Made by a program: the position numbers and the translations under genes. From the IMG/VR virus record IMGVR_UViG_3300047476_000239, positions 1-24,364 of that record: DNA of 24,364 bases. One strand, written 5' to 3'. Source of the DNA: a virus. The notes beneath the pieces were generated by a model. It worked only from the letters and a program-made list of their open reading frames with translations, did no database searches and had not been told where the DNA came from. Shown one piece after another: positions 4,775-21,014 of the stretch (its first letter is position 1; the number at the start of each line of letters is the position of its first letter).

Positions 4775-7321
4775 TTATTCCTTGCCTATATCTTTAAGAT
4801 TTGTTTTGCCTTTTTGAGCATTCTTCATCATTTCTTCTTGAAGTTTAGTCGCTCTTTTGCGTTCTGCTTTATTGATTGTAAATTGTGCAGCTTTTTCACC
4901 AATTTTTTCGCCAATTGTTGCGCCCAAAGGAATGCCAGTAAATGATCCAGCTTCTCTGCCAAGCAAAGGCAATCTTTCTGCAAATTTACCAACTCTTTGA
5001 GCTTGTAAGGCTGCGCCTTCATAAGCATGAACACCTGGCATGATGTAACCACCATAGTTCAATGTATGGAAAGCTCTTTGTTCTTCAGGAGAAAAAGCAT
5101 GTTCAATCTTTTTGGCTCTTGCATTAAGAATGTTATTTACTGAGTTTTGATTCCATGTTCCAGCTTTACCAGCGCCAGCCATGTAAATTTCCCTAGCTAA
5201 TGCGCCTTTCATTTCAGCTTTAGCAGCATTGGCATATTGAACCAATTCAGGGGTAATTTCCAAATCAAAATCAGCTCCACGAACTCTGCCTTTTGAAATT
5301 TCATCAAAAGTATCGTAAATATGTTTCCATTGGTCAGGAGGCATTGAATTGAGTTTTTTAGGTATTGCATCATAGCTAGTGCCAGTTTGCACACCATTTG
5401 GATCAACTTCGCCAAATAAGGTTTTAATTCCTTTTGATTCAAATATTTTCTTTTCTGCTTTGTGCAAATTATCGGCTTTTTTGTATAAATCTTGACCACC
5501 AGCCAAAGCAATATCTTTATCAATAGCAGCATTGATCTTTTTTATTGTTGAGGCATTGTCTTTTGTCCATTCGCCATTTAAAGCCTCTCTTACAGCTTTC
5601 CATGCAGCAATACTGTTTGGAGGTAAAACTTTACCTGCTCTATCTTCAAAACCAACTGTTTTAGCCAACTCAATAAGCTGTTCAGCGCTTTTGGCAACAC
5701 CTTCATTTCCTTTTAATCCAAGGCTTGCTCTAAATTGCTTGTTTTCTAACAAATTGGCAACTGATTCAGATTTAATGGGGTTATCGCCTACTTTAGCTCT
5801 TGCATCGTCATAAAGGGCTTGTTTTTGAGCTTTAAGGTATCCAGTAAATCCTTCATCGCTTGCAATAGCATCATTTAAAAGCTGACCACGCTCATAGTCT
5901 GTAGGCAAGTTTTTGCTTGCTCCAGTATTTTCAATGCGCTGTTCTGCATAACGAGATAAAGCGTTTTGCTCCTCTGCAATTTGCCGTTTTAGCAATTCAC
6001 TTGTAGCAGTAGGATTTGCTGATCTTGCTTCTGTATATTCATTTCTAAGAGTATTTTCATTGCCAGTAATTACACCGCTACGAACTTGAGCGCCCTCGCC
6101 AAGAATTTCATTGGCAATTTGTGAGCGAGTTGCTTGTTCAGCAGGAGCAGCATCTTCTTTAACCTTAGACAATTTAACAGCAGGGTATTGTCCTCGAATT
6201 GTTTCCTCTCCTGAAATCTTTCCTGTGTAAGGGTTAATTTCAGTTTTAGCAGCGCCAACTCCAGCCATTGAAGGTTGTGCGCCAGCAGGAGCAACTGGAG
6301 TAGGTTCTTCAAACTTAGGAAAGCTCTTTTCAAACTGCTCTTTAAGTTTTGCTCCAGCACTTTTAATGCTTGGCAATTTAGCTCCAACAGCAGTAGTAAT
6401 ACTGTTAAGCATACTTTCCACATCTTCTTTAGGAATGCCTGTTTTTTGAGCAATAGCATCAGCACTTTCGCCAACATATTGAGCAATAGTTTCCATTGCT
6501 TGACGGCTAAACTCTTTTTTATAAGCTGGTTCTTGAGTAACCCCTAAAGCCTTGCCAAATGGCTGAGATAAAGGTTCTGCAAGTCCTTGAGCAATTTCAG
6601 TAGCTTTTTCAGGAGTTTGACCAACTGCTCTAGCAATAGGATAAGCAACAGTAGCAACTGTTCCTGGAACAACTCCAGTAGCTGTATCAGCCAAAGAAGC
6701 AACACCAGCAACCAAAGGTCTTGCAGTTTCAGAAGCCTTTTTAGAGCGCTCTGCAAACTTATCCATAAAACTTTGATTATCAGAAGGTGCGCCTTCAGCT
6801 TGACCAAATAATTTAGGTTTTAGAGCTTGTTTAGGTTTTTCTCCTGCTTCTTTTGGAGCTTCTGCTTTTCCGCCCATTAAAAAGCTAGAAAAAGGATCAG
6901 AAGATTCTTGAGTTGATTGTGCTTGTTTGGCGCCACCAATAACTTTGCTTACATAAGGCTCAGGATTAACTGTAATATGTCCACCATAAGCAGCCAAAGC
7001 CTTTTCAAGGCTTCCTGTTTTATTAACTAAAGTAGTTAAATAATGGCGAGCTGCTTCTCTAGATTCTTTTGGATTAAAAGGATTAAACTCATAACCCTGT
7101 TCATGCAACATTTTTACAGTAGAAGGAATAAATTGATAATCCCCCATAGCGCCTGATTGCTTATTTAAAGCAAATTTTTCTTTACCGCTTTCTGTGCGCT
7201 TTAGACTATCAAGAATGGCATCAGTAATAACTGGAGATGCGCCTTGATTAGATGCAGGGTTAGCTTGAGGAATAGGGGCTTTAGACTGTCCTCCCATTAA
7301 GAATTGGCTAAAGTCATCCAT
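4775..7321 (-). CDS. Internal virion/ejection protein with N-terminal lytic transglycosylase domain (P22 gp16 position)
   Basis: An 848-residue protein. Residues 30-130 are an SLT-type lytic transglycosylase domain, with ILDSLKRTESGKEKF (catalytic E44 likely), GAMGDYQFIPSTVKML and ALAAYGGH as the family motifs. It would cut peptidoglycan so that DNA can pass during infection. The segment at about 195-260 is Gly/Ala/Val-rich and amphipathic. The rest is long and helical, with a basic C-terminus (from about 805). A short motif, FSQFLMGGQSKAP (residues 4-16), recurs as FSSFLMGGKAEAP (144-156), bracketing the enzymatic domain. AGGA lies 8 bases upstream, and the ATG overlaps the preceding stop (TAATG). 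The position matches P22 gene 16, though P22 gp16 is shorter. Confidence 0.85.
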   Translation of the reverse strand: MDDFSQFLMGGQSKAPIPQANPASNQGASPVITDAILDSLKRTESGKEKFALNKQSGAMGDYQFIPSTVKMLHEQGYEFNPFNPKESREAARHYLTTLVNKTGSLEKALAAYGGHITVNPEPYVSKVIGGAKQAQSTQESSDPFSSFLMGGKAEAPKEAGEKPKQALKPKLFGQAEGAPSDNQSFMDKFAERSKKASETARPLVAGVASLADTATGVVPGTVATVAYPIARAVGQTPEKATEIAQGLAEPLSQPFGKALGVTQEPAYKKEFSRQAMETIAQYVGESADAIAQKTGIPKEDVESMLNSITTAVGAKLPSIKSAGAKLKEQFEKSFPKFEEPTPVAPAGAQPSMAGVGAAKTEINPYTGKISGEETIRGQYPAVKLSKVKEDAAPAEQATRSQIANEILGEGAQVRSGVITGNENTLRNEYTEARSANPTATSELLKRQIAEEQNALSRYAEQRIENTGASKNLPTDYERGQLLNDAIASDEGFTGYLKAQKQALYDDARAKVGDNPIKSESVANLLENKQFRASLGLKGNEGVAKSAEQLIELAKTVGFEDRAGKVLPPNSIAAWKAVREALNGEWTKDNASTIKKINAAIDKDIALAGGQDLYKKADNLHKAEKKIFESKGIKTLFGEVDPNGVQTGTSYDAIPKKLNSMPPDQWKHIYDTFDEISKGRVRGADFDLEITPELVQYANAAKAEMKGALAREIYMAGAGKAGTWNQNSVNNILNARAKKIEHAFSPEEQRAFHTLNYGGYIMPGVHAYEGAALQAQRVGKFAERLPLLGREAGSFTGIPLGATIGEKIGEKAAQFTINKAERKRATKLQEEMMKNAQKGKTNLKDIGKE

Positions 7322-8646: not shown

Positions 8647-9504
8647 TTAAGCTGGTCGAACAGTAAATCCTGCGCCACCAGTAAGATCGGCTCCAGCTCC
8701 GCTAGTGGTGTATCCAGTTGAGCTTAAAGCATTTTCATAGCTTTGTGGCTGATTCATTTGATTCATAGCATAGTAGCCACCAATATTTCCAAGGCTTTGA
8801 AGGGCATTACCCATAATGTTTCCTTGAGCAATTTGAGAAGCTGCTTGAGCATTTCCAAGTCCGCTTGTAAGGCTTGCCACATTTGTGCCTGTTCCAATAA
8901 GAGCATTTGCCTGACCAGTAGCGCCTGTAAGTCCCATTTTGGCAATATCGCTTAATTGGTTATAAATGTTTGTTCTTTGGGCTTGAAACTGATTAAAAGC
9001 ATTGGCATATTCGCCTGATGCAAAATTTTGAGTGTAATCTTGTAGGCTTCGCAAAGCATTGCCACTTACAGCGCCACCAGTAAGGTTTGATGCAGCTAAA
9101 TTAGCCCCTTGACCTTGTTTTAGCCTAAAAGCATAACCAGGAGCCATAGCTGCATTAAGATCAGCAGCGCCAAATTGCTGTTGGAAATAAGGTCTATTTA
9201 CAGACATATCAGATAGCGCAGTTTTTCCTGCTTCTACATAAGGCTGATATTTTTCAGCGCCTTGTCTGCCAGCTTCTAAAACTTGACCTTGAGCCCTAGC
9301 TGCTGCATCCGCTTGAGTTTGAGCGGCGCTTTTTGCTCCTGAACTTGAAATAAGCGCTCCGCCAATAGTAGCTGCACCCATAATTCCAGCAGAAACAGGA
9401 TCATTGTATTCGCCATAAGCAGGACCACCAAAAGGATCTCCAATTGGGTATTCGGCTGACATAGCCTTAGTTGTGGCACGACTTAAATAGTATTTATTAA
9501 ACAT
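8647..9504 (-). CDS. DNA-transfer/ejection protein, P22 gp7-like
   Basis: A 285-residue Ala/Gly/Gln-rich protein. Residues 38-58 (AGIMGAATIGGALISSSGAK) form a hydrophobic, glycine-zipper-like segment. A helical region follows (TQADAAARAQGQVLEAGRQG, AEKYQPYVEAGKTALSDM) and then FRLKQGQGANLAASNLTGGA with RSLQDYTQNFASGEYANAFN. These are features of the widely distributed phage DNA-transfer/minor structural family that includes P22 gp7-position proteins. It probably enters the host envelope with the DNA. AGGTG lies 5 bases before the ATG at 9504. A second ATG at residue 15 is possible. The start overlaps the upstream gene by 8 bases. Confidence 0.75.
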   Translation of the reverse strand: MFNKYYLSRATTKAMSAEYPIGDPFGGPAYGEYNDPVSAGIMGAATIGGALISSSGAKSAAQTQADAAARAQGQVLEAGRQGAEKYQPYVEAGKTALSDMSVNRPYFQQQFGAADLNAAMAPGYAFRLKQGQGANLAASNLTGGAVSGNALRSLQDYTQNFASGEYANAFNQFQAQRTNIYNQLSDIAKMGLTGATGQANALIGTGTNVASLTSGLGNAQAASQIAQGNIMGNALQSLGNIGGYYAMNQMNQPQSYENALSSTGYTTSGAGADLTGGAGFTVRPA

Positions 9505-9874
9505 AGCTGCACCTATCGCATTTTAAGTAGATTTTACCTTGCTCCTGTTTTATTTCAATAAAACCAAGCCTTTTACAAAAATTAATTCCTTTTTGGTTTT
9601 CTTGCATAACAGAAGTTACTGCATAACCATACTTATCAATTACCTTTTTTAAGGTTTCCCTTAAATGACCTCTTATTGAAAATGTTGGTTTTATTCCATA
9701 GCCTATATGAACTTCATTTTCTTTTGCCAAAACACCGCCAATAATGACATCTTTTTGCTTCAATGGAGTTATATCCCAATCGCTCATAATTTGATAAAAA
9801 TCTTCGAAAGGCATATTTAGCCTATCTTTTACAGACTCATAGATCATTTTGATCGCTGTTTTTCTATCAGACAT
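9497..9874 (-). CDS. GNAT-fold acetyltransferase-like virion-region protein
   Basis: A 125-residue protein. Residues 39-62 (LKQKDVIIGGVLAKENEVHI, GYGI) and 91-110 (QENQKGINFCKRLGFIEIKQ) match the beta4 and the terminal Asn...GF motif of GNAT acetyltransferases. The P-loop-like acetyl-CoA motif is only weakly visible (IRGHLRETL, residues 68-76). The position just before the gp7-like gene corresponds to P22 gene 14 and to the T7 gp13-type GNAT-like internal virion proteins. A structural or assembly role with degraded catalysis is therefore as likely as real acetyl transfer. No good ribosome site is seen, and it overlaps the preceding gene by 8 bases, which suggests coupling. Confidence 0.7.
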   Translation of the reverse strand: MSDRKTAIKMIYESVKDRLNMPFEDFYQIMSDWDITPLKQKDVIIGGVLAKENEVHIGYGIKPTFSIRGHLRETLKKVIDKYGYAVTSVMQENQKGINFCKRLGFIEIKQEQGKIYLKCDRCSYV

Positions 9875-10106: not shown

Positions 10107-12235
10107 TAGTTTTCCCCTACAGAGGCTTTAAGGTTGGCAGATACGATAACAGCCTTAACTGGATCTGTAACCACAACTTCATAAATTCGATCTCTAGCCC
10201 AACCTAATCTTCGCCAAATAATACGATTTTGGTATTTTCCAACCTTGCCAATTCCTGACCAATGTTCATTTGACCATGTAGAACCGCCATCATTTGACCA
10301 TCGGAGCATAGCTTGAGGATTTGCTCCCTCTGTTTCAAGATTTATTGGGGGGGTTGTAATACCCTGCAAACCAACACCAGGTTGAAATTGAATTTGCAAT
10401 TCTTCAAAATATTGGCGCTGAAAATCAGTAACCAAATGAGGGCATCTACGAACTCTGCGAATATTATTGCCATTATCTGTGTAATTGTCAGGATCTAGCT
10501 TATAAATTTGCCCATTTTCCCAATCTCCAACCAATACTAATCCTTGGAAAAAAGCAGAGCAATTTGATCTATGGCGCTTAAAATTATTTTGGCTATCGCA
10601 CCATAACCATTTATGCCACATTTGAGTTGCGCCATCATAAACCCAAGTTAATTCAAGGCTTGGAAAGCTAACAACATAGCATTCATGTCCTTCTAATTGA
10701 TATGTATAGGCAACTGCATCGCTAATGTTTTGATTTACAAGTGTATTTTCTACCGCATGAGTAGAAATGCGCTCAGGGAAATAGCCATTCATTTTTACAA
10801 TAACAGCTTGACCACGATCATTTCTTGAAACATAAGCAAAAGAGTTGCCAAATCGAGCCATGCTAAATTTAGCAGCAATGCCATGCTGACTTGATGCGCC
10901 AGGAATGCGCTGAAAAGGAAATGGGAATGTACCAGTATCAGCCCAAACCTCAGAAGTCTTTTCGCCTAATAAATAAATTTGACCATGATCTACAATTAAA
11001 GAAACAAGATCATCAGGCCCTGTAAATTTAGATGCAAAAGACAATCCATAAGTAATTGGCGATAAAACATCAGAAGAAGCCCATTGCTGAGTATTTGGTT
11101 TGTTATAAACAAAATAGTTATCAACAATATCTACTGTAGAACCACCTGTAAATGCTCCATCAGTTGTTGGCAACCTACTGAAATTTAAGGCATACATAGT
11201 TCTAGAGGTAACTGTTTGGCTGTTGTTAATTACATAATTACCAGTTGATCCAGTTCCTGTTCCAAATGTAAGGGTAAGAGTTAATCCTGTTCCAGCTCCA
11301 TCGGAAGATGTAGAAACATTGTTTGTGGGTGTAGATGTATATTGACCTGAAAAAGTTCTAGTAAGACCTGTAACAGCTCCTGAGCCACCAATTGAAGTAA
11401 CTGTATAAGTAGCTGGACTTGATCCATAAACACCACCTAAAACAGTAATATTTTCATTGACTGCATATCCTGTTCCACCAGCAGCAATAACTTCACTAAG
11501 AACAGTACCGCTACCTAAAGCAGTAATAATTGTATTAACTGCTACTGTAGAACCTTGAATGGTTTGTCCAAGGTATAAAGTTCCGCTAGTTACGGCAGTA
11601 ACAGTAAGAGTAGTTCCTGACATTTCACCAGTAAAAACTGAAGCTACGGCAGCCGAGTTCATACGAATTGGTGATGCAATAGTATTGCCCTGATTTAAAG
11701 TCCAAGTAGATCCTGAACCACTAACAATTACAGTATCTGGTGTAATGCCAACACCAAATAAAGCCTGATTTGCAGAAATTGATCCTGAAATCAATCTAGT
11801 TACAGTTAATGTTGTTCCACTAATTGTGCCTTCAAATACAGCAGAGTTAGGATTAGAAATTCGCCATGTATAACGATTAATTCCATCCACAATATAAACA
11901 TTTATACCATTATCAGTAATTCCTACTTGACCGCTATTAGACTCTAATTGACCAACAATAGTAGGAGTAAAGTCTGATCCCATTACATAAACATAAGGAC
12001 CACAAACAGCAACAAGGTAATCTTGCCCTGAAACTGCTCTCATTCCTCTGACTTCTTGAGCAGTTTGTAGTGTTACCACATTGGTTAAACCTGGAGTTGG
12101 ATATAAAGCTACAACACCCCTAGACCCTGGTTGTTTAGTAGGATCAATTTCAGGTCTAAAGTTTATGCACTCCTGAGCATCTTGATAGATGGAAGGAGCT
12201 TCGTAAGCTGAACCAACAAAGCCAAAATCTGCCAT
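10106..12235 (-). CDS. Packaged-DNA stabilisation protein, P22 gp10-like, with inserted repeat region
   Basis: A 709-residue tail-hub/head-completion protein. The start MADFGFVGSAYEAPSIYQDA and QECINFRPEIDPTKQPGSRG, with ALYPTPGLTNV following, match the P22 gp10 family (Phage_stabilise). The C-terminal part (about residues 355-709) is a propeller-like region with YFVYNKPNTQQWASSDV, DHGQIYLLGEKTSEVWAD and RWSNDGGSTWSNEHW. P22 gp10 is about 470 residues. The excess is explained by a Gly/Ser/Thr-rich beta-repeat insertion at residues 133-347. Gp10 normally joins gp4 below the portal and retains packaged DNA. AAGG lies 7 bases before the ATG. The gp4-like gene lies directly upstream, as in P22. 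Confidence 0.88.
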   Translation of the reverse strand: MADFGFVGSAYEAPSIYQDAQECINFRPEIDPTKQPGSRGVVALYPTPGLTNVVTLQTAQEVRGMRAVSGQDYLVAVCGPYVYVMGSDFTPTIVGQLESNSGQVGITDNGINVYIVDGINRYTWRISNPNSAVFEGTISGTTLTVTRLISGSISANQALFGVGITPDTVIVSGSGSTWTLNQGNTIASPIRMNSAAVASVFTGEMSGTTLTVTAVTSGTLYLGQTIQGSTVAVNTIITALGSGTVLSEVIAAGGTGYAVNENITVLGGVYGSSPATYTVTSIGGSGAVTGLTRTFSGQYTSTPTNNVSTSSDGAGTGLTLTLTFGTGTGSTGNYVINNSQTVTSRTMYALNFSRLPTTDGAFTGGSTVDIVDNYFVYNKPNTQQWASSDVLSPITYGLSFASKFTGPDDLVSLIVDHGQIYLLGEKTSEVWADTGTFPFPFQRIPGASSQHGIAAKFSMARFGNSFAYVSRNDRGQAVIVKMNGYFPERISTHAVENTLVNQNISDAVAYTYQLEGHECYVVSFPSLELTWVYDGATQMWHKWLWCDSQNNFKRHRSNCSAFFQGLVLVGDWENGQIYKLDPDNYTDNGNNIRRVRRCPHLVTDFQRQYFEELQIQFQPGVGLQGITTPPINLETEGANPQAMLRWSNDGGSTWSNEHWSGIGKVGKYQNRIIWRRLGWARDRIYEVVVTDPVKAVIVSANLKASVGEN
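11195..11839 (-). repeat. Beta-repeat insertion inside the gp10-like gene (two units, second interrupted)
   Basis: Residues 133-347 of the gp10-like protein. Unit 1 (133-192) reads [20 protein letters not shown] with ALFGVGITPDTVI. Unit 2 (200-347) begins [20 protein letters not shown] and ends in NYVINNSQTVTSRTM. Unit 2 is split by about 83 residues (245-327, 11255-11503) of a different Gly-rich domain (AAGGTGYAVNENITVLGG, with TPTNNVS and TLTLTFG). The same unit type occurs in the gp4-like gene. Boundaries are approximate. Confidence 0.75.
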
Positions 12236-12244
12236 TTTTTAGCC

Positions 12245-13441
12245 TTATCTAAAGAATCCACCATTGAGAATCCAGCCAGCATCTTTTTGACGGCTAGAAA
12301 GCATTGCATCAGCAAATTGAGCTGTCTGCATCGGTTTCATGTTAGTTCGTTTAAGAGTTGCCTTAGCTTGTGCAGCATAGGCATTAATCATAGCTATTTG
12401 AGTTGGCGATGCTTTGCCATACATAGGCATCATTCGCTCTGCCAAACACCATCTGAGAGCCATAGAATAGCCTTGTGGAAGCACTATATCGTCATACATG
12501 GTTCCATAATTGCTAAACAGCGTTTGAGCAAATAAATGAACTTCGCCTTGGGATGGGTTAGGCCATAAGAAAACATTGCCTGACTGCTCATTTGGGTTGA
12601 AATACACAGCCTTAGGCCAAGGGCCATTTAATGTTTTAAGACCAATAGAGTTATAGTTATCTAATGCTAAAACAGCCATTTGATAATCTAAACCACCATT
12701 GGCAATAGGCTGACCATTTGAGCTAGTGTTTACCCTTACATAGGCACTATCAATGCCAAGTGGCTTTTGATAGTAAGCAGTAATAGTTGAATCTACGATT
12801 GTTCCAGTAATGGTTGTAGAAGCTACAGTTTGAGAAGCGCTTACTGTATAAGTTCCAGTTCCGCCAGATCCGCTTATCAAAGCTGTAATGGTTGTTCCAG
12901 CAGTAATGCCAGTTCCACTAATAACAGAACCAATATTGACTGCTCCTGATGCTACAGCAGTAACAGTTAAAGTTGTGCCTGAAATAGAGCCTGTAAATAC
13001 TGGAGTTTGAGTGCCTTGAACAATGTTAAGCAAGTAAGTGCCTTGCTCATTTACATTACCGCCAGCTCCAGTTAAATTGCGAACAATTCGAGTTCCTGGT
13101 GTAATGCCTTGACCGCTTAAATATTGTCCTTGAGCAACAGCTCCTGAGTTAATACCAGTAACTGTTAATACATTTCCTGAAAAAGTTCCTGTAAATGAAG
13201 CGCCAATAAAGTTAGCTGTAGATGGATCAGGACCAATAGTGTATTGAACTTGCCCTGCAATTACTGGAAAAATGATTTCAGTAATATTAAATACCATCAT
13301 GTCCTCATTTGACCATTGGTCTATGAGGTCATTCATTAACTCAAAAGCATCTTTAGCAGCATCGGCTGTAGGCTGTTCGCCAGCCTCAAGAGCGCCAATA
13401 TCTTTTAAGGCTCTGCTAATAATGTCAATCGGCTTGGTCAT
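12245..13441 (-). CDS. Head-completion/tail accessory protein, P22 gp4-like, with inserted repeat region
   Basis: A 398-residue protein. The helical N-terminus ([60 protein letters not shown]; to residue 70) and the C-terminal part from about 216 ([56 protein letters not shown]) are characteristic of the P22 gp4 tail accessory family, which docks under the portal. P22 gp4 is only 166 residues and related proteins are a little over 200. Residues about 82-215 here are an insertion of two beta-repeat units. GGA lies 6 bases upstream of the ATG. The gp4-gp10 neighbour order is conserved. Any peptidoglycan-cutting activity reported for P22 gp4 cannot be judged from this sequence. Confidence 0.87.
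12797..13198 (-). repeat. Tandem beta-repeat insertion inside the gp4-like gene (two units)
   Basis: Unit 1 (residues 82-147) reads [20 protein letters not shown], with [14 protein letters not shown] and [14 protein letters not shown]. Unit 2 (148-215) reads [20 protein letters not shown], with [33 protein letters not shown]. The consensus is FTGxxSGxxLTVTxxxSGxxxxGxxxxGxGIxxGTxI. Similarity is clear at protein level and diverged at DNA level. The units interrupt an otherwise continuous gp4-like fold. Confidence 0.78.
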
Positions 13442-14233: not shown

Positions 14234-14545
14234 TTATTTGCTCTCCAAAATCATGTTCTGCGCCACTTGTGGCACTCCAGCAGCAGCCATTAAGACACGA
14301 TTTCCAACTTCATTTGCCTTAACCATTTCATTGCGAAAGCTCTCAACTGCTGCGCTTGTGCTTCTTTGTTGCTGACTATTTTCAATCATTAAAACTGGCA
14401 ACCAAGCCATTGAACAACCCCATTCTTCAATTTCTTTATCAGATTGAGGGTCTTTTCCTTTGATTTTCATAAACCATGCACAATCTAATTGTCTGCATGG
14501 ATTAAATCCATCTAAAGGGCAGTTTGTTTTTGATTCAATCTTCAT
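14234..14545 (-). CDS. Conserved phage hypothetical with four-cysteine N-terminus
   Basis: A 103-residue protein. Residues 1-50 contain C9, C17, C22 and C44 (NCPLDGFNPCRQLDCAWF, EEWGCSMAWLPVLM), spaced in a way that could hold a metal or an Fe-S centre. Residues 53-75 (MIENSQQQRSTSAAVESFRN, EM) form a helix that I recognise from small conserved proteins next to phage fibre genes. The Ala-rich end is helical. No function is established to my knowledge. The ATG overlaps the fibre stop (TAATG). Confidence 0.68.
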   Translation of the reverse strand: MKIESKTNCPLDGFNPCRQLDCAWFMKIKGKDPQSDKEIEEWGCSMAWLPVLMIENSQQQRSTSAAVESFRNEMVKANEVGNRVLMAAAGVPQVAQNMILESK

Positions 14546-17106
14546 TAATCTTTGCTCGCAATAATTAAATCAACATAAGCAACATTTAATGTAATAGCTG
14601 AAGATGTAGCAGATCCTGAAATTGTATGGGTATGAGATCCGCCACCACCAGTTGCGCCTGTATTTGCTCCAACATAAGTTGGACCATCAGAAGCATAAAG
14701 GTTGAATGGTCCTGTTGCACCAAGAGTTGTATAGCTATGGGTATGGCTAGGTATTTGAGTTGTGGTAAGAGTTGTAGCTCCAGCACTTAAACCGCTAGTA
14801 GTAATAGTTGGAGTTTGGTTTGTAAATACTGTTGTAAATGCAGTAGTTCCGCCTGAACTTGCAGTTCCACTAACTACTCTCAATGCTTTGTCATTATGAG
14901 TTGTTTGCTTTGTCCATCCAGTAGGAGCAGTTGTTTGCTGGAAAAGCATTAAAGTTCCTGATGGGAATCCACCAACACCAGTTAATGCAGATCCATCGCC
15001 AGCAAATGATGTTGCTGTTAATCTTCCTGTAGATGGATTGTATTGAAGTTTTGTAGAGCTAACATTTTCACCAGTAATTGAACCGCTTGTAGCACTTGTA
15101 AAGGTTAAATAACGAGTAGCATTTGTGGTTGTATCGTCTGTAATTGTGATACCGCCTGTTACTGTGCTTGCAATACTTACAGCTCCTGCTGTATTTGTAA
15201 TTGAAATTCCAGTTCCAGCAGTTAAAGGAGCATTTACCCATTTACCGCTAGTTTGATTGCGAATCAGCAAATCGCCATTGGCAGGAGTTGTTACCTGAAC
15301 ATCGCCTTCATATTGACCCAAAGCCCCACCAAAAGATGGGCGAATAAACAAAGATCCATTTGCATCAGCATGAACTACAGCACAAACTTGAACTTTAGCA
15401 TTTGGAGCTGATGGCAAAGTCTTTGTTAATCCACCAGCAACAGCAGGATTGTAATAAAGAATCTGACCATCTACCCATGATTCAGCGCCACCAGTAGTAT
15501 TGATTCCACGAACCAAACCAAAAGCAGTTACATAAATCCAATCGTTTGTAGCTCCGCTTTCAGTAGCAACACCCATTACATAAGATGCAGTATCAGCAGT
15601 TAATCCTGTAGCAGGAGCGCCAATTAAACCGCCACTAGCCCCAACTGTGCCAGCAAACATAACAACTTGGCCTTCAGTAATGGCTGATTGACATTTAATA
15701 CGGAAATAGGTTTCCTGGCCAATTTGCATGGTTGCATTAGATCCAGCCATTCCCAAATTAAGGGTTTGAATGCTATCTGTGCTATCCCACCATAAGCGAC
15801 CAGTTGCCCTAGTTACAGTAGCGCCAGTATCAAACTGAATGTAATCAGGAGAAGAAATGCCTCCTGTAATTCCTGTCATAGAGGTTATATCGCTATTAGC
15901 CCCTGAGTTTGCTTTGCCGTTGAATGTATTCCAATCAGTTGAGCTTAAATACCCATTTGAAGCTGATCCAGCTTGAGTAATAGTAATATTTGGAGTTGCT
16001 CCACCACTAGATGCAAGAGGAGCTGATGCAGTTACGGCTGTTACAGTTCCAACGGCATTAGGAATCCATGCTGGAACACCTGAAACCAAAGACAAGATAT
16101 ATCCATCGGTTGATGCAGCTAATAATCCAGTTGTATTTGTAGCAGTTTGATATGGCAAAGAACCAGCAGCTCCACCCAATAAATTGGTTGTGCTTGCTGA
16201 ACTTCCTGTAACAGATCCACTAATAGGATTGGTTACAGTTAAATTTCCAAGGGTTCCAAGACCAGTAATACCGCTATAAGAACCGCTTAAACGAGCAGAA
16301 TCAATTGTTCCGCTAGTAATTTGAGTTCCTGCAATAGCAATATCTTGTTGGCTTGCTGAAGTTGCTTGACCTTGAGCGTTAATAGCTAAAGTTACAGTCT
16401 TGCTTGCAGAACCATAAGTGCCATTTGTAACACCAGTATTAGTAATGCTAAATACACCAGCAAGAAGGCTTAAGCCTGTTCCTGCACTATATGTAGATGA
16501 AACACTAAAGTTAGCCCAATCAAGAGCTGTAACTCCAAGAGTTCCACCTTCTTGAGCCAAGCTATACCATGCGGAATAGGCTTGCGAGCCTTCCTCTACA
16601 AATACAATAGCGCCTACATACTCTTGCCAATCATCAGCTCCAATAGCATATTCCCATGCTCCTGAGCGCACTACATAAATGCCATTGTTTTTTGAAAGGC
16701 TTTGATCTTTTACAAGAACCCTATCTCCATCAGTTAATGGAACTGTATCAACAGTCTGAAAACCTGAAAGAGATGCAATATTGGCTAAAGAAGCAGCTTT
16801 TACTGGCTGCTTCCAACTAAGACCAGCAGCAAAATAATCTACATATTGTTTATTGGCAATTCCAGTAGCAGTTGTAGGAGCTACTGAAACATAACCTGAT
16901 GTAAAGTAACCAACAGCAGGAGTTATTCCGCCAATTACAGAGCTGTCAATGGTGCTGTTTGTAATATGAAGCCCTGATTGATCAGGATCAGGAACTGCAT
17001 AAAATGGCTTATTCTGACCAATAAAAGTCTGAAAATTACCATTTACATCAAAATAAGCCTGAACAGGCAATAGATTCTGAACTTCAGATTCTGCTGGATT
17101 AGCCAT
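14545..17106 (-). CDS. Large tail fibre protein with C-terminal collar domain
   Basis: An 853-residue Thr/Ser/Gly/Ala-rich fibre. The N-terminal 50 residues (QAYFDVNGNFQTFIGQNK) may be the attachment region. Residues about 87-205 carry the widespread fibre module IANKQYVDYFAAGLSWKQPV, GDRVLVKDQSLSKNNGIYVV. A beta-repeat shaft follows (SGSVTGSSASTTNLLGGAA, SSKLQYNPSTGRLT-type phrases near 680-705). The last 142 residues (from about 712: GGFPSGTLMLFQQTTAPTGW, with IPSHTHSY and GGGSHTHTISG) are a phage collar/fibre-tip domain with His pairs. It likely binds the host surface. AAGGA lies 6 bases before the ATG. The following genes encode a candidate fibre chaperone and other accessories. Confidence 0.87.
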   Translation of the reverse strand: MANPAESEVQNLLPVQAYFDVNGNFQTFIGQNKPFYAVPDPDQSGLHITNSTIDSSVIGGITPAVGYFTSGYVSVAPTTATGIANKQYVDYFAAGLSWKQPVKAASLANIASLSGFQTVDTVPLTDGDRVLVKDQSLSKNNGIYVVRSGAWEYAIGADDWQEYVGAIVFVEEGSQAYSAWYSLAQEGGTLGVTALDWANFSVSSTYSAGTGLSLLAGVFSITNTGVTNGTYGSASKTVTLAINAQGQATSASQQDIAIAGTQITSGTIDSARLSGSYSGITGLGTLGNLTVTNPISGSVTGSSASTTNLLGGAAGSLPYQTATNTTGLLAASTDGYILSLVSGVPAWIPNAVGTVTAVTASAPLASSGGATPNITITQAGSASNGYLSSTDWNTFNGKANSGANSDITSMTGITGGISSPDYIQFDTGATVTRATGRLWWDSTDSIQTLNLGMAGSNATMQIGQETYFRIKCQSAITEGQVVMFAGTVGASGGLIGAPATGLTADTASYVMGVATESGATNDWIYVTAFGLVRGINTTGGAESWVDGQILYYNPAVAGGLTKTLPSAPNAKVQVCAVVHADANGSLFIRPSFGGALGQYEGDVQVTTPANGDLLIRNQTSGKWVNAPLTAGTGISITNTAGAVSIASTVTGGITITDDTTTNATRYLTFTSATSGSITGENVSSTKLQYNPSTGRLTATSFAGDGSALTGVGGFPSGTLMLFQQTTAPTGWTKQTTHNDKALRVVSGTASSGGTTAFTTVFTNQTPTITTSGLSAGATTLTTTQIPSHTHSYTTLGATGPFNLYASDGPTYVGANTGATGGGGSHTHTISGSATSSAITLNVAYVDLIIASKD

Positions 17107-18798: not shown

Positions 18799-20028
18799 TT
18801 AAGATGCGATACGGCAAGCCAACTCTGGGTAGAGTGGAGCCCAACCATACAGAACATCCAAACGAGTAGGAATAGAGTCATTGTTAATTGTGTATTGACG
18901 AACTACACGCATAGACAGACCGATTTCCTTGTCGCTTGCACGACCAGCAAAATGAACACCTTCAGGCAACTCAAGATCGGCTACTGCGAGAGTAAACGCA
19001 TTCTTGTGCATGAGGATGTTTTGTGGGCTGGTTACACCAGTTTTGTTGAAGAAAGCTACAGCTTGTGCGCCTGAGCTAGTTACGCTGATGTTTTGGAACT
19101 GACCAGCAGAAATAGGAGCAGGAGATACATTAACTGTAATTGTTGTGTCAGTACCGCTAACAGCAGAATTAACAACAAAGTTACGCAACTTGCCATAAGA
19201 CTGACGATTTTGTGGGTTTACAGCATAAACACCAGCGATAGTAAATGTATCGCCTTGGTTCAAGCTAACAGCGCCAGTTGCAACCAAAGAAATATTGGCA
19301 GAAGAAGCCCAACCTGAAGTCAAGAAACCAGTAGCTGTGGTTACATTGACTGTAGCTGTGCCAGCAAAAGAGCCGTAAGTTTGGTTTACGATGTTCTGAT
19401 CCATCTTCCAGTTCATACCAGCAGAATCACGACCCATCAAGCCTTTGCGATATTGTTGTCCAATTGCTTCTTGTGGAACAAACAAACCTTTTAGGCTATC
19501 AACGATAGTAGCGCTTGAGAATGGGTCGATGATTACAGAACGACGGCCATCACGAGGAGCGCCTTCAGAGTCAAGATATGCACCAGCGTTTAAGAAGGTG
19601 ATCAAGCCTGTTGGAGGAGTGCCTGCTGTGCCTACAGTATTGTAAGTAGCGTTTTTAGCCATTGTTAAGCCATCAAGGTCAATCTTGTTGGCGATAGCTG
19701 CAACTGCTGGCTTCAATACACGATCAGAGAACATATCCAAGCTCAAAGCCAAGTCCTGAGTTGTGAATTGTGTATCCACATGGAACTGGGTTGAGAGGGT
19801 TACAGGAACTGAAGTTTCGTTGAAATCTTCAACATTCAATGCAGGGCCTGTTGTTCCGATAAAACGACCTGGTCTGCGGACATTGACTGTATTACCAATC
19901 TTTGCGCCAACTACTGCGAACTGGTCATCATAGTTACGATCTACTTCTGAAGTGAATGTTAATTCGTTTTCCAAGACCATTAACGCTTCGTTAGTGATCT
20001 TGCTAATGGTTAATAAAGTATTACTCAT
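18799..20028 (-). CDS. Major capsid protein, P22 coat-like
   Basis: A 409-residue coat protein of the P22 gp5 family. The start SNTLLTISKITNEALMVLEN, ELTFTSEVDRNYDDQFAVVG, then KIGNTVNVRRPGRF, and later LDMFSDRVLKPAVAAIANKI are typical. The middle (about residues 215-300) is a Thr/Val/Ser-rich beta region, probably the inserted domain of this family. P22 coat is 430 residues, so the length is normal. AAGGAA precedes the ATG. Scaffold and portal genes upstream, and a terminator immediately downstream, complete the head module. Confidence 0.93.
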   Translation of the reverse strand: MSNTLLTISKITNEALMVLENELTFTSEVDRNYDDQFAVVGAKIGNTVNVRRPGRFIGTTGPALNVEDFNETSVPVTLSTQFHVDTQFTTQDLALSLDMFSDRVLKPAVAAIANKIDLDGLTMAKNATYNTVGTAGTPPTGLITFLNAGAYLDSEGAPRDGRRSVIIDPFSSATIVDSLKGLFVPQEAIGQQYRKGLMGRDSAGMNWKMDQNIVNQTYGSFAGTATVNVTTATGFLTSGWASSANISLVATGAVSLNQGDTFTIAGVYAVNPQNRQSYGKLRNFVVNSAVSGTDTTITVNVSPAPISAGQFQNISVTSSGAQAVAFFNKTGVTSPQNILMHKNAFTLAVADLELPEGVHFAGRASDKEIGLSMRVVRQYTINNDSIPTRLDVLYGWAPLYPELACRIAS

Positions 20029-20057: not shown

Positions 20058-21014
20058 TTACCTGATCTTCCCTGCTTTTCGAGCAGCTTTCCACGCTTGA
20101 AAAGACCCATGAAACTCGCCATCCGAGCCAATAGGTGTTTCCATTGCGCTTCCAGTAGCCTTAATAGGGCTGAGAGGAGCAGGAGCTTTAGACTTCTGAA
20201 CAACAGGCTTACTTCTTACGGCTTCTTCTTGAGCAGCTTCCTGCTTTTCAAATCTAGCCTCCAATTTCCCAATCTCTCTAAGCGCTTTGTGAACAGGCAA
20301 TGCTTGGAATTTCTCAGCTTCTTCGCCATCTAGACTAGCTAGGTGATAAAGAATCTCAGGGCCAACATCCGATTCAATGATTGCATCTCTCACTTCATTG
20401 CTAACAACGACTTGAGTTGATTCAAGCACTTCATCAAAATCAGCTAGATTTGGCTTCGCTTTTTCGAGCTTTTCAGACCAAGTCTTTAGGACTTTTTGTC
20501 TTTCTTCCTCAATCTTGCGATTGGCTTCTTGCTGATCCCTTTCATACAACGCTTTTTCTGCTGACCATTCCGCTAATGCCTTTGCATATTCAAAAGCATC
20601 ATCAAATTGATCTGCCCTAGGTTCTGCTCCGATTGGATCTTCCGCTTTTTGTTGTTGCGGAGAAATCCTTTCTTCATATTCCCTAAGTCTAGCTTCCAGC
20701 GCTTCTTTTTCAGCTTGTGCCTTGGCAGCGTTTTCTTCCGCCAATTTACGAGCCTTAGTTAGCTCTGAAAACCGCTTTTCGAGTTTAGGATTTTGCTTCC
20801 GTTCCTCTGTTGCTTTACCTTCAGGCTCTTGATCGTGTTCACTCTCACCTTCTTCTGCTACTGGCTCTGATTCAGGAGTTTCCTCAACTGTTTCAGCCTC
20901 AGTAGGAGCTTCTTCGGTAGCTAAACCCATCCGATTTAAAGTCCATTCGGTTAAATTCTCGCTAGTTACTACATTACCAGCTTGTTTTGCCTCTACTGCT
21001 TGTGCTTCTGCCAT
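20058..21014 (-). CDS. Scaffolding protein, P22 gp8-like
   Basis: A 318-residue, highly charged helical protein that should guide procapsid assembly. It has an acidic N-terminal region (about 30-75, Glu-rich), a coiled coil (about 78-125, LEKRFSELTKARKLAEENAA), further helices, and a basic C-terminal element SFQAWKAARKAGKIR that resembles the coat-binding helix-turn-helix of P22-type scaffolds. P22 gp8 is 303 residues. It lies between portal and coat as expected. GAGG is 8 bases before the ATG. Confidence 0.88.
   Translation of the reverse strand: MAEAQAVEAKQAGNVVTSENLTEWTLNRMGLATEEAPTEAETVEETPESEPVAEEGESEHDQEPEGKATEERKQNPKLEKRFSELTKARKLAEENAAKAQAEKEALEARLREYEERISPQQQKAEDPIGAEPRADQFDDAFEYAKALAEWSAEKALYERDQQEANRKIEEERQKVLKTWSEKLEKAKPNLADFDEVLESTQVVVSNEVRDAIIESDVGPEILYHLASLDGEEAEKFQALPVHKALREIGKLEARFEKQEAAQEEAVRSKPVVQKSKAPAPLSPIKATGSAMETPIGSDGEFHGSFQAWKAARKAGKIR

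Follow-up and report, generated by a model that had tools for sequence, protein, structure and literature searches.

A predicted small β-barrel unit inserted and nested in the adaptor and nozzle proteins of a P22-like phage neck

The window, which is the whole stretch of DNA that was analysed, comprises 24,364 nucleotides (positions 1 to 24,364 of the IMG/VR virus record IMGVR_UViG_3300047476_000239) and comes from a freshwater phage. Its minus strand carries a P22-like morphogenesis block (Table 1), in which the gene of the gp4-like protein follows the coat gene and precedes the gp10-like gene, the order typical of an adaptor. The adaptor contains two units of about 65 amino acids each and the nozzle protein two more. 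Two further open reading frames of the minus strand were noted. One (4775-7321) encodes a protein of 848 amino acids with a transglycosylase SLT domain at its N-terminus (E 4.1e-9), likely an ejected cell-wall-cutting protein. The other (9497-9874, 125 amino acids) weakly matches acetyltransferases; in Xanthomonas phage PBR31 a gene annotated as acetyltransferase and comparable in size lies a short way downstream of the gp10-like gene.

Table 1. Positions of the neck genes, their neighbours and the inserted units in the window
Feature	Position	Strand	Supporting data
Scaffold-like protein	20058-21014	minus	
Coat protein	18799-20028	minus	Pfam P22_CoatProtein, E 1.2e-41
Tail-fibre-like protein, 853 aa, upstream of gp4	14545-17106	minus	PHROGs tail fibre / head decoration matches
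gp4-like head-to-tail adaptor, 398 aa	12245-13441	minus	Pfam SU10_adaptor 28.2 bits, cut-off 27
gp4 unit 1, residues 82-143	13013-13198	minus	58.6-61.5 bits, outside-only unit profile; absent in 232-268 aa relatives
gp4 unit 2, residues 148-213	12803-13000	minus	117-120 bits; absent in 324-331 aa relatives
gp10-like nozzle / head closure protein, 709 aa	10106-12235	minus	phrog_578 head closure Hc3, E 3.2e-101
gp10 unit 1, residues 133-194	11654-11839	minus	49-51 bits; absent in 489-aa relatives; pLDDT about 90-95
gp10 unit 2, N-terminal part, residues 200-242, strands 1-3	11510-11638	minus	60-63 bits; model strands 199-218, 225-227, 235-239
Gly-rich domain, residues 243-326, 84 aa, between strands 3 and 4 of gp10 unit 2	11258-11509	minus	pLDDT about 76-89
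gp10 unit 2, C-terminal part, residues 327-349, last strand	11189-11257	minus	31-34 bits; model strand 332-349
DNA-ejection-type protein, downstream of gp10	8647-9504	minus	

The units were scored with a profile which had been built from proteins other than gp4 and gp10 only, and 2000 composition-preserving shuffles of each insert were scored with the same profile. The gp4 insert yielded 61.5 and 119.8 bits against 29.0 for the best shuffle, the gp10 insert 51.4, 63.0, and 33.7 bits against 24.2, which rules out chance low complexity as the source of the scores. All four units claimed in the original prediction, two in each protein, were thereby recovered. The third gp10 match (residues 319-347, 33.7 bits) aligns to profile positions 34-62 only, and as this is precisely the missing C-terminal half, unit 2 of gp10 is truly split by the Gly-rich domain, as had been read from the letters. 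The 18-residue motif by which the repeat had been described occurs exactly in gp4 unit 2 and gp10 unit 2, with NV for TT in gp4 unit 1 and FEG for FTG in gp10 unit 1. A search of the open frames of the window found no units beyond gp4 and gp10. The Gly-rich domain matches phrog_9703 (head decoration) and phrog_32129; searches of Pfam and PHROGs matched no carbohydrate-binding module family to gp4 or gp10 of the window.

AlphaFold2 models of the two proteins had a mean pLDDT of 73 each and pTM values of 0.62 and 0.68, so that the orientation of the domains in the models is uncertain. Every unit shows an identical four-strand pattern with a block pLDDT mostly of 80-97, and the units are modelled as separate small β-barrels. 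In unit 2 of gp10 the Gly-rich domain (strands 244-325) precedes the last strand at 332-349. The cores around the inserts match P22 gp4 (Z 15.1 over 110 residues, 2.0 Å) and P22 gp10 (Z 34.2 over 328 residues, 2.6 Å), which lack the inserts, and the units thus interrupt P22 folds as originally proposed. The gp10-like core has the propeller fold and also matches the propeller of the crAss001 muzzle gp44 (Z 23.7). Judged from the strand count its insert would sit after eight propeller strands, or about two blades. From the order of the helices, the gp4 insert presumably lies between those which flank the long-tail-fibre dock domain in the adaptors of SU10 and T7.

The fold predicted for the unit is EF-Tu domain-II-like. 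For gp4 unit 2 the best match was chain 1 of PDB entry 8eci from Arthrobacter phage Bridgette (Z 7.4 over 64 residues, 1.9 Å, 38% identity), followed by domain II barrels of translation factors at Z 6.5-6.8. As these lie within 1 of the best match, the fold has to be regarded as common, and fold alone is not specific to cement proteins. A comparison of the gp4 model with the BFVD placed a collagen-repeat protein of Indivirus ILV1 first and also found A0A6J5SIT1, a major capsid protein of the HK97 type (38% over 118 columns), which suggests that folds like that of the unit occur in a giant virus and in a capsid protein, too.

Relatives were collected from IMG/VR and GenBank, unit-bearing ones being present among the GenBank phages. 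By open-frame length, gp4 proteins mostly have 232-268 amino acids without a unit, about 324-331 with one, about 398 with two, and 476-492 with three. The gp10 proteins have about 489 amino acids without insert, about 662 with two intact units, about 709 with a split unit, and 797 where the splitting domain is itself opened. In two relatives with a gp10 of 662 amino acids (L061, L064) unit 2 is intact and the site of the Gly-rich domain empty, and in two with 489 amino acids (L047, L086) the site of the whole insert is empty. The domain within a domain within a domain of the original prediction is confirmed by these comparisons, and in L013 (6207-8594) 88 further residues open the Gly-rich domain nested in unit 2, which brings the nesting to four levels. 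In two gp4 proteins with three units (L205, 2775-4250, and L237, 2823-4250) a unit lies inside unit 1, as read from the sequence. Another domain occupies the first loop of gp10 unit 2 in L189 and L239, and the gp10 site of L205 contains different Gly-rich repeats with a weak match to CBM_5_12 (E 0.0024, below the curated cut-off). With empty sites found in both genes the segments are not integral to the two families, and as relatives lack them, the architecture as such can do without the units. Both genes were complete in 324 loci, a similarity-ranked and redundant set, of which 64 had no units in either gene, 91 had units in gp4 only, and 169 in both; gp10 units without gp4 units were found in none of the 324 loci of this ranked, redundant set.

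A tree of 132 rows was calculated from the concatenated gp4 and gp10 cores with the insert columns left out. On this tree the presence of gp4 units changes once, the presence of gp10 units three times, and the number of gp4 units 13 times. Read in this way, a single gain accounts for the first gp4 unit, one or two gains for the pair in gp10, and about 12 for the further units of gp4. All 90 rows of its clade have kept the first gp4 unit. Within the unit-bearing gp10 rows the Gly-rich domain changes three times. The gp4 of phage PBR31 (L087), which was taken as unit-free in the unit counts, shows by eye a diverged unit at the same site (ISGAGIPAGATVTAIG...) with weak profile support, so that the single gain may predate this clade.

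The presence of gp10 units requires two changes on a tree of the gp10 core compared to 14 on a tree of the gp4 core, which indicates that the two genes reassort. L205 and L237 have gp4 cores which are 93% identical and carry three units each, beside gp10 cores which are only 62% identical and of which one has no units. Since near-identical three-unit adaptors thus occur with unit-bearing as well as unit-free nozzles, the gp4 units are independent of the gp10 units. An obligate pairing of units in the two proteins was therefore rejected, and with it a required contact between gp4 units and gp10 units. The spread between the neighbouring genes which the original prediction had drawn from the shared unit fared no better as a recent event. 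The mean identity of gp4 and gp10 units within one genome was 0.46-0.52 compared to 0.46-0.51 in shuffled pairings, an excess of at most 0.01. In balanced samples the nearest units to gp4 unit 2 and to both gp10 units came most often, in about half of the cases, from outside proteins, a result which for gp4 unit 2 is favoured by the query used to fetch the outside set, as this resembled that unit. No long DNA identity was found between unit copies, the best repeat being 60 nucleotides at 67-72% identity. Ancient copying between gp4 and gp10 may still have taken place. Selection was examined in 22 close genomes, where dN/dS was 0.06-0.23 for the inserts and 0.05-0.13 for the cores, indicating purifying selection, with values above those of the cores in three of the six insert segments.

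The profile search across phage proteins, which had been proposed together with the original prediction, revealed further carriers. In prophage-like records of Herbaspirillum, Rhodospirillaceae, and Rhodovarius the unit is located C-terminally on minor head or cement proteins (phrog_2122; Pfam Phage_cement, XM1_gp53). It was also found on a baseplate wedge protein (L209), and near the middle of a neck terminator protein (PF23961) in a Paraburkholderia record (L252, 3791-4507), where it was apparently captured independently, this neck protein belonging to a different type of phage. Long bacterial proteins contain the unit, too. Exterior virion proteins make up most of the identified viral carriers outside the gp4/gp10 family. 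In Bridgette, gene 7 (126 amino acids) lies directly after the major capsid gene, and its product scored 24.8 bits with the outside unit profile, which none of 2000 shuffles reached; with two other versions of the profile one and seven of 2000 shuffles did so. By its length and the position of the gene this product, gp7, is probably chain 1 of 8eci and a cement protein. Sequence searches of the PDB with unit queries gave nothing convincing and did not list 8eci.

As an explanation for these findings we suggest, with a probability of about one half, that the units are accessory β-barrel display modules, which project outward from the neck and provide weak multivalent adhesion to the host surface or to particles. 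The modules would have been drawn from a pool common to many virion proteins and inserted into tolerant loops, which in the adaptor belong to the presumed fibre-dock region and in the nozzle to the propeller. An ancestor would have captured the first gp4 unit once and kept it; the gp10 pair would have followed later, further gp4 units would have been gained repeatedly, and the Gly-rich domain would have entered unit 2 of gp10 a few times. P22 has 12 copies of gp4 and six of gp10, and with this stoichiometry the neck would carry about 36 units. Display is preferred mainly because most of the identified viral carriers are exterior virion proteins, and the occupation of the gp10 site by other modules in L205 and the purifying selection on the inserts also count for it. 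A precedent exists in lactococcal phages of the 936 group, whose neck protein contains a carbohydrate-binding module for which binding to host cells was demonstrated (PMC6669499). The projecting collar decoration of the original prediction is in accordance with the insert positions, the Bridgette match, and the virion-protein carriers; the outward projection as such is deduced from homologous positions and may be assumed with caution. Against display counts that dN/dS gave no sign of diversifying selection, although this would be expected in a direct arms race, and that the Bridgette match, good by structure, is weak by sequence. Typical sugar-binding sites present an aromatic face. The intact units contain 3-6% aromatic residues and are low in charge as well, which makes sugar binding only a guess and appears to speak against it.

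Capsid cement proteins stabilise the particle against internal pressure. The units might likewise act in the manner of cement and brace the head-tail joint mechanically by pairing among themselves or with capsid proteins around the neck, a doubtful reading which nevertheless has several observations on its side: a capsid chain of Bridgette matches the fold of the unit, the cement proteins of Bridgette are dimers which bridge capsomers around the penton (PMC13033339), the cement proteins of the prophage-like records carry C-terminal units, and the inserts are under purifying selection. The reading is difficult to reconcile with unit-bearing adaptors beside nozzles with or without units and with about 12 changes of unit number, which would be odd for a symmetric joint; in the cement fusions, moreover, the units come on top of a cement domain which itself binds the capsid.

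That the gp4 units extend a dock domain and hold the long tail fibre encoded just upstream seems unlikely. The adaptor dock domain holds the fibres in SU10 and T7 and is absent in P22 and Sf6 (PMC9509320), and the gp4 insert is located between helices corresponding to those around this domain. The tail-fibre-like gene of the window is part of an upstream fibre region characteristic of relatives with units. Upstream sequence of at least 4.5 kb was available for 44 unit-bearing loci, of which 37 have a homologue of the fibre N-terminus there, compared to none of 33 unit-free loci with 2.5 kb or more, a comparison of flanks of unequal length, and a capsid gene lies within 2.5 kb of gp4 in 26 of 33 unit-free but only one of 142 unit-bearing loci. 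Fibre region and units may, however, share a single branch, in which case the association may reflect one event. The upstream regions were homologous in two of 17 pairs with a changed unit number compared to 15 of 76 pairs in the control, so that a tie between gp4 unit number and fibre region gave no signal above control, and the gp10 units are left unexplained. Least probable is that easily folding barrels rich in Gly, Thr, and Ser spread between genes as passengers which have no defined function and persist because they do little harm, for although the units are promiscuous, occurring in many unrelated proteins, exceed the cores in dN/dS in half of the insert segments, and even nest within each other in the gp4 of L205 and L237, their dN/dS is well under 1, the first gp4 unit has been kept throughout its clade, and compact phage genomes usually shed useless sequence.

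Together with display by the units a more general picture may be considered, which we regard as tentative and would not yet rely on: the neck might be a general socket, in which fixed loops of adaptor and nozzle take up modules from a virion-wide pool, the modules are re-opened to at least four levels, and the variants reassort, so that the surface evolves combinatorially while the sealing core remains undisturbed.

Most descriptions of domain shuffling in phages concern receptor-binding proteins and lysins. Proteins of the head-tail joint are reported to be genetically diverse but disproportionately low in structural diversity (PMC10684548). In the present family it is the joint which carries a graded natural series, with zero to three units in gp4 and an intact, split, or re-split unit in gp10, together with the empty sites in relatives. 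This series shows how nested multidomain proteins are built stepwise, and it identifies loops in two conserved neck proteins which tolerate inserted domains; among the relatives, modules have been added, stacked, and exchanged over evolution.

Nested insertion at about the same propeller position is already known from the crAss001 muzzle gp44 (PDB 7qok/7qol), which has the propeller fold of the gp10 core; Ig-like domain 1 separates blade 2 from blade 3 there, and Ig-like domain 2 harbours a nested domain of its own (PMC10172136). The modules there are Ig-like and crass folds, whereas here they are EF-Tu-II-like barrels of 65 amino acids and a Gly-rich domain, and unlike in crAss001 the adaptor carries modules, too, and their copy number differs among close relatives. 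In SU10 the nozzle gp17 is a propeller with extra Ig-like domains and the adaptor gp11 a helix bundle with a fibre-dock domain, and the account of this phage contains neither a unit common to both proteins nor a unit nested in a unit (PMC9509320). P22 gp4 and gp10 (PDB 9pgg, 8eap) share the core folds and have no inserts in the compared chains (148-152 and 471 residues). In the open-access literature no description of the gp4 and gp10 inserts was found, and as far as our tools show, it is new that adaptor and nozzle share one small barrel, that the relatives form a graded series with empty sites, that a unit is nested in another copy of itself, and that the nesting reaches four levels. Bridgette 8eci chain 1 has a fold like that of the unit, as a separate capsid protein there and as an insert in neck proteins here. 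The neck passage structure of the 936 phages (PMC6669499) likewise displays binding modules of several exchangeable types, one of which was shown to bind the host; in these siphophages the modules are C-terminal carbohydrate-binding modules of other folds on a separate collar protein, whereas in the present phage the units are inserted into the adaptor and the nozzle themselves.
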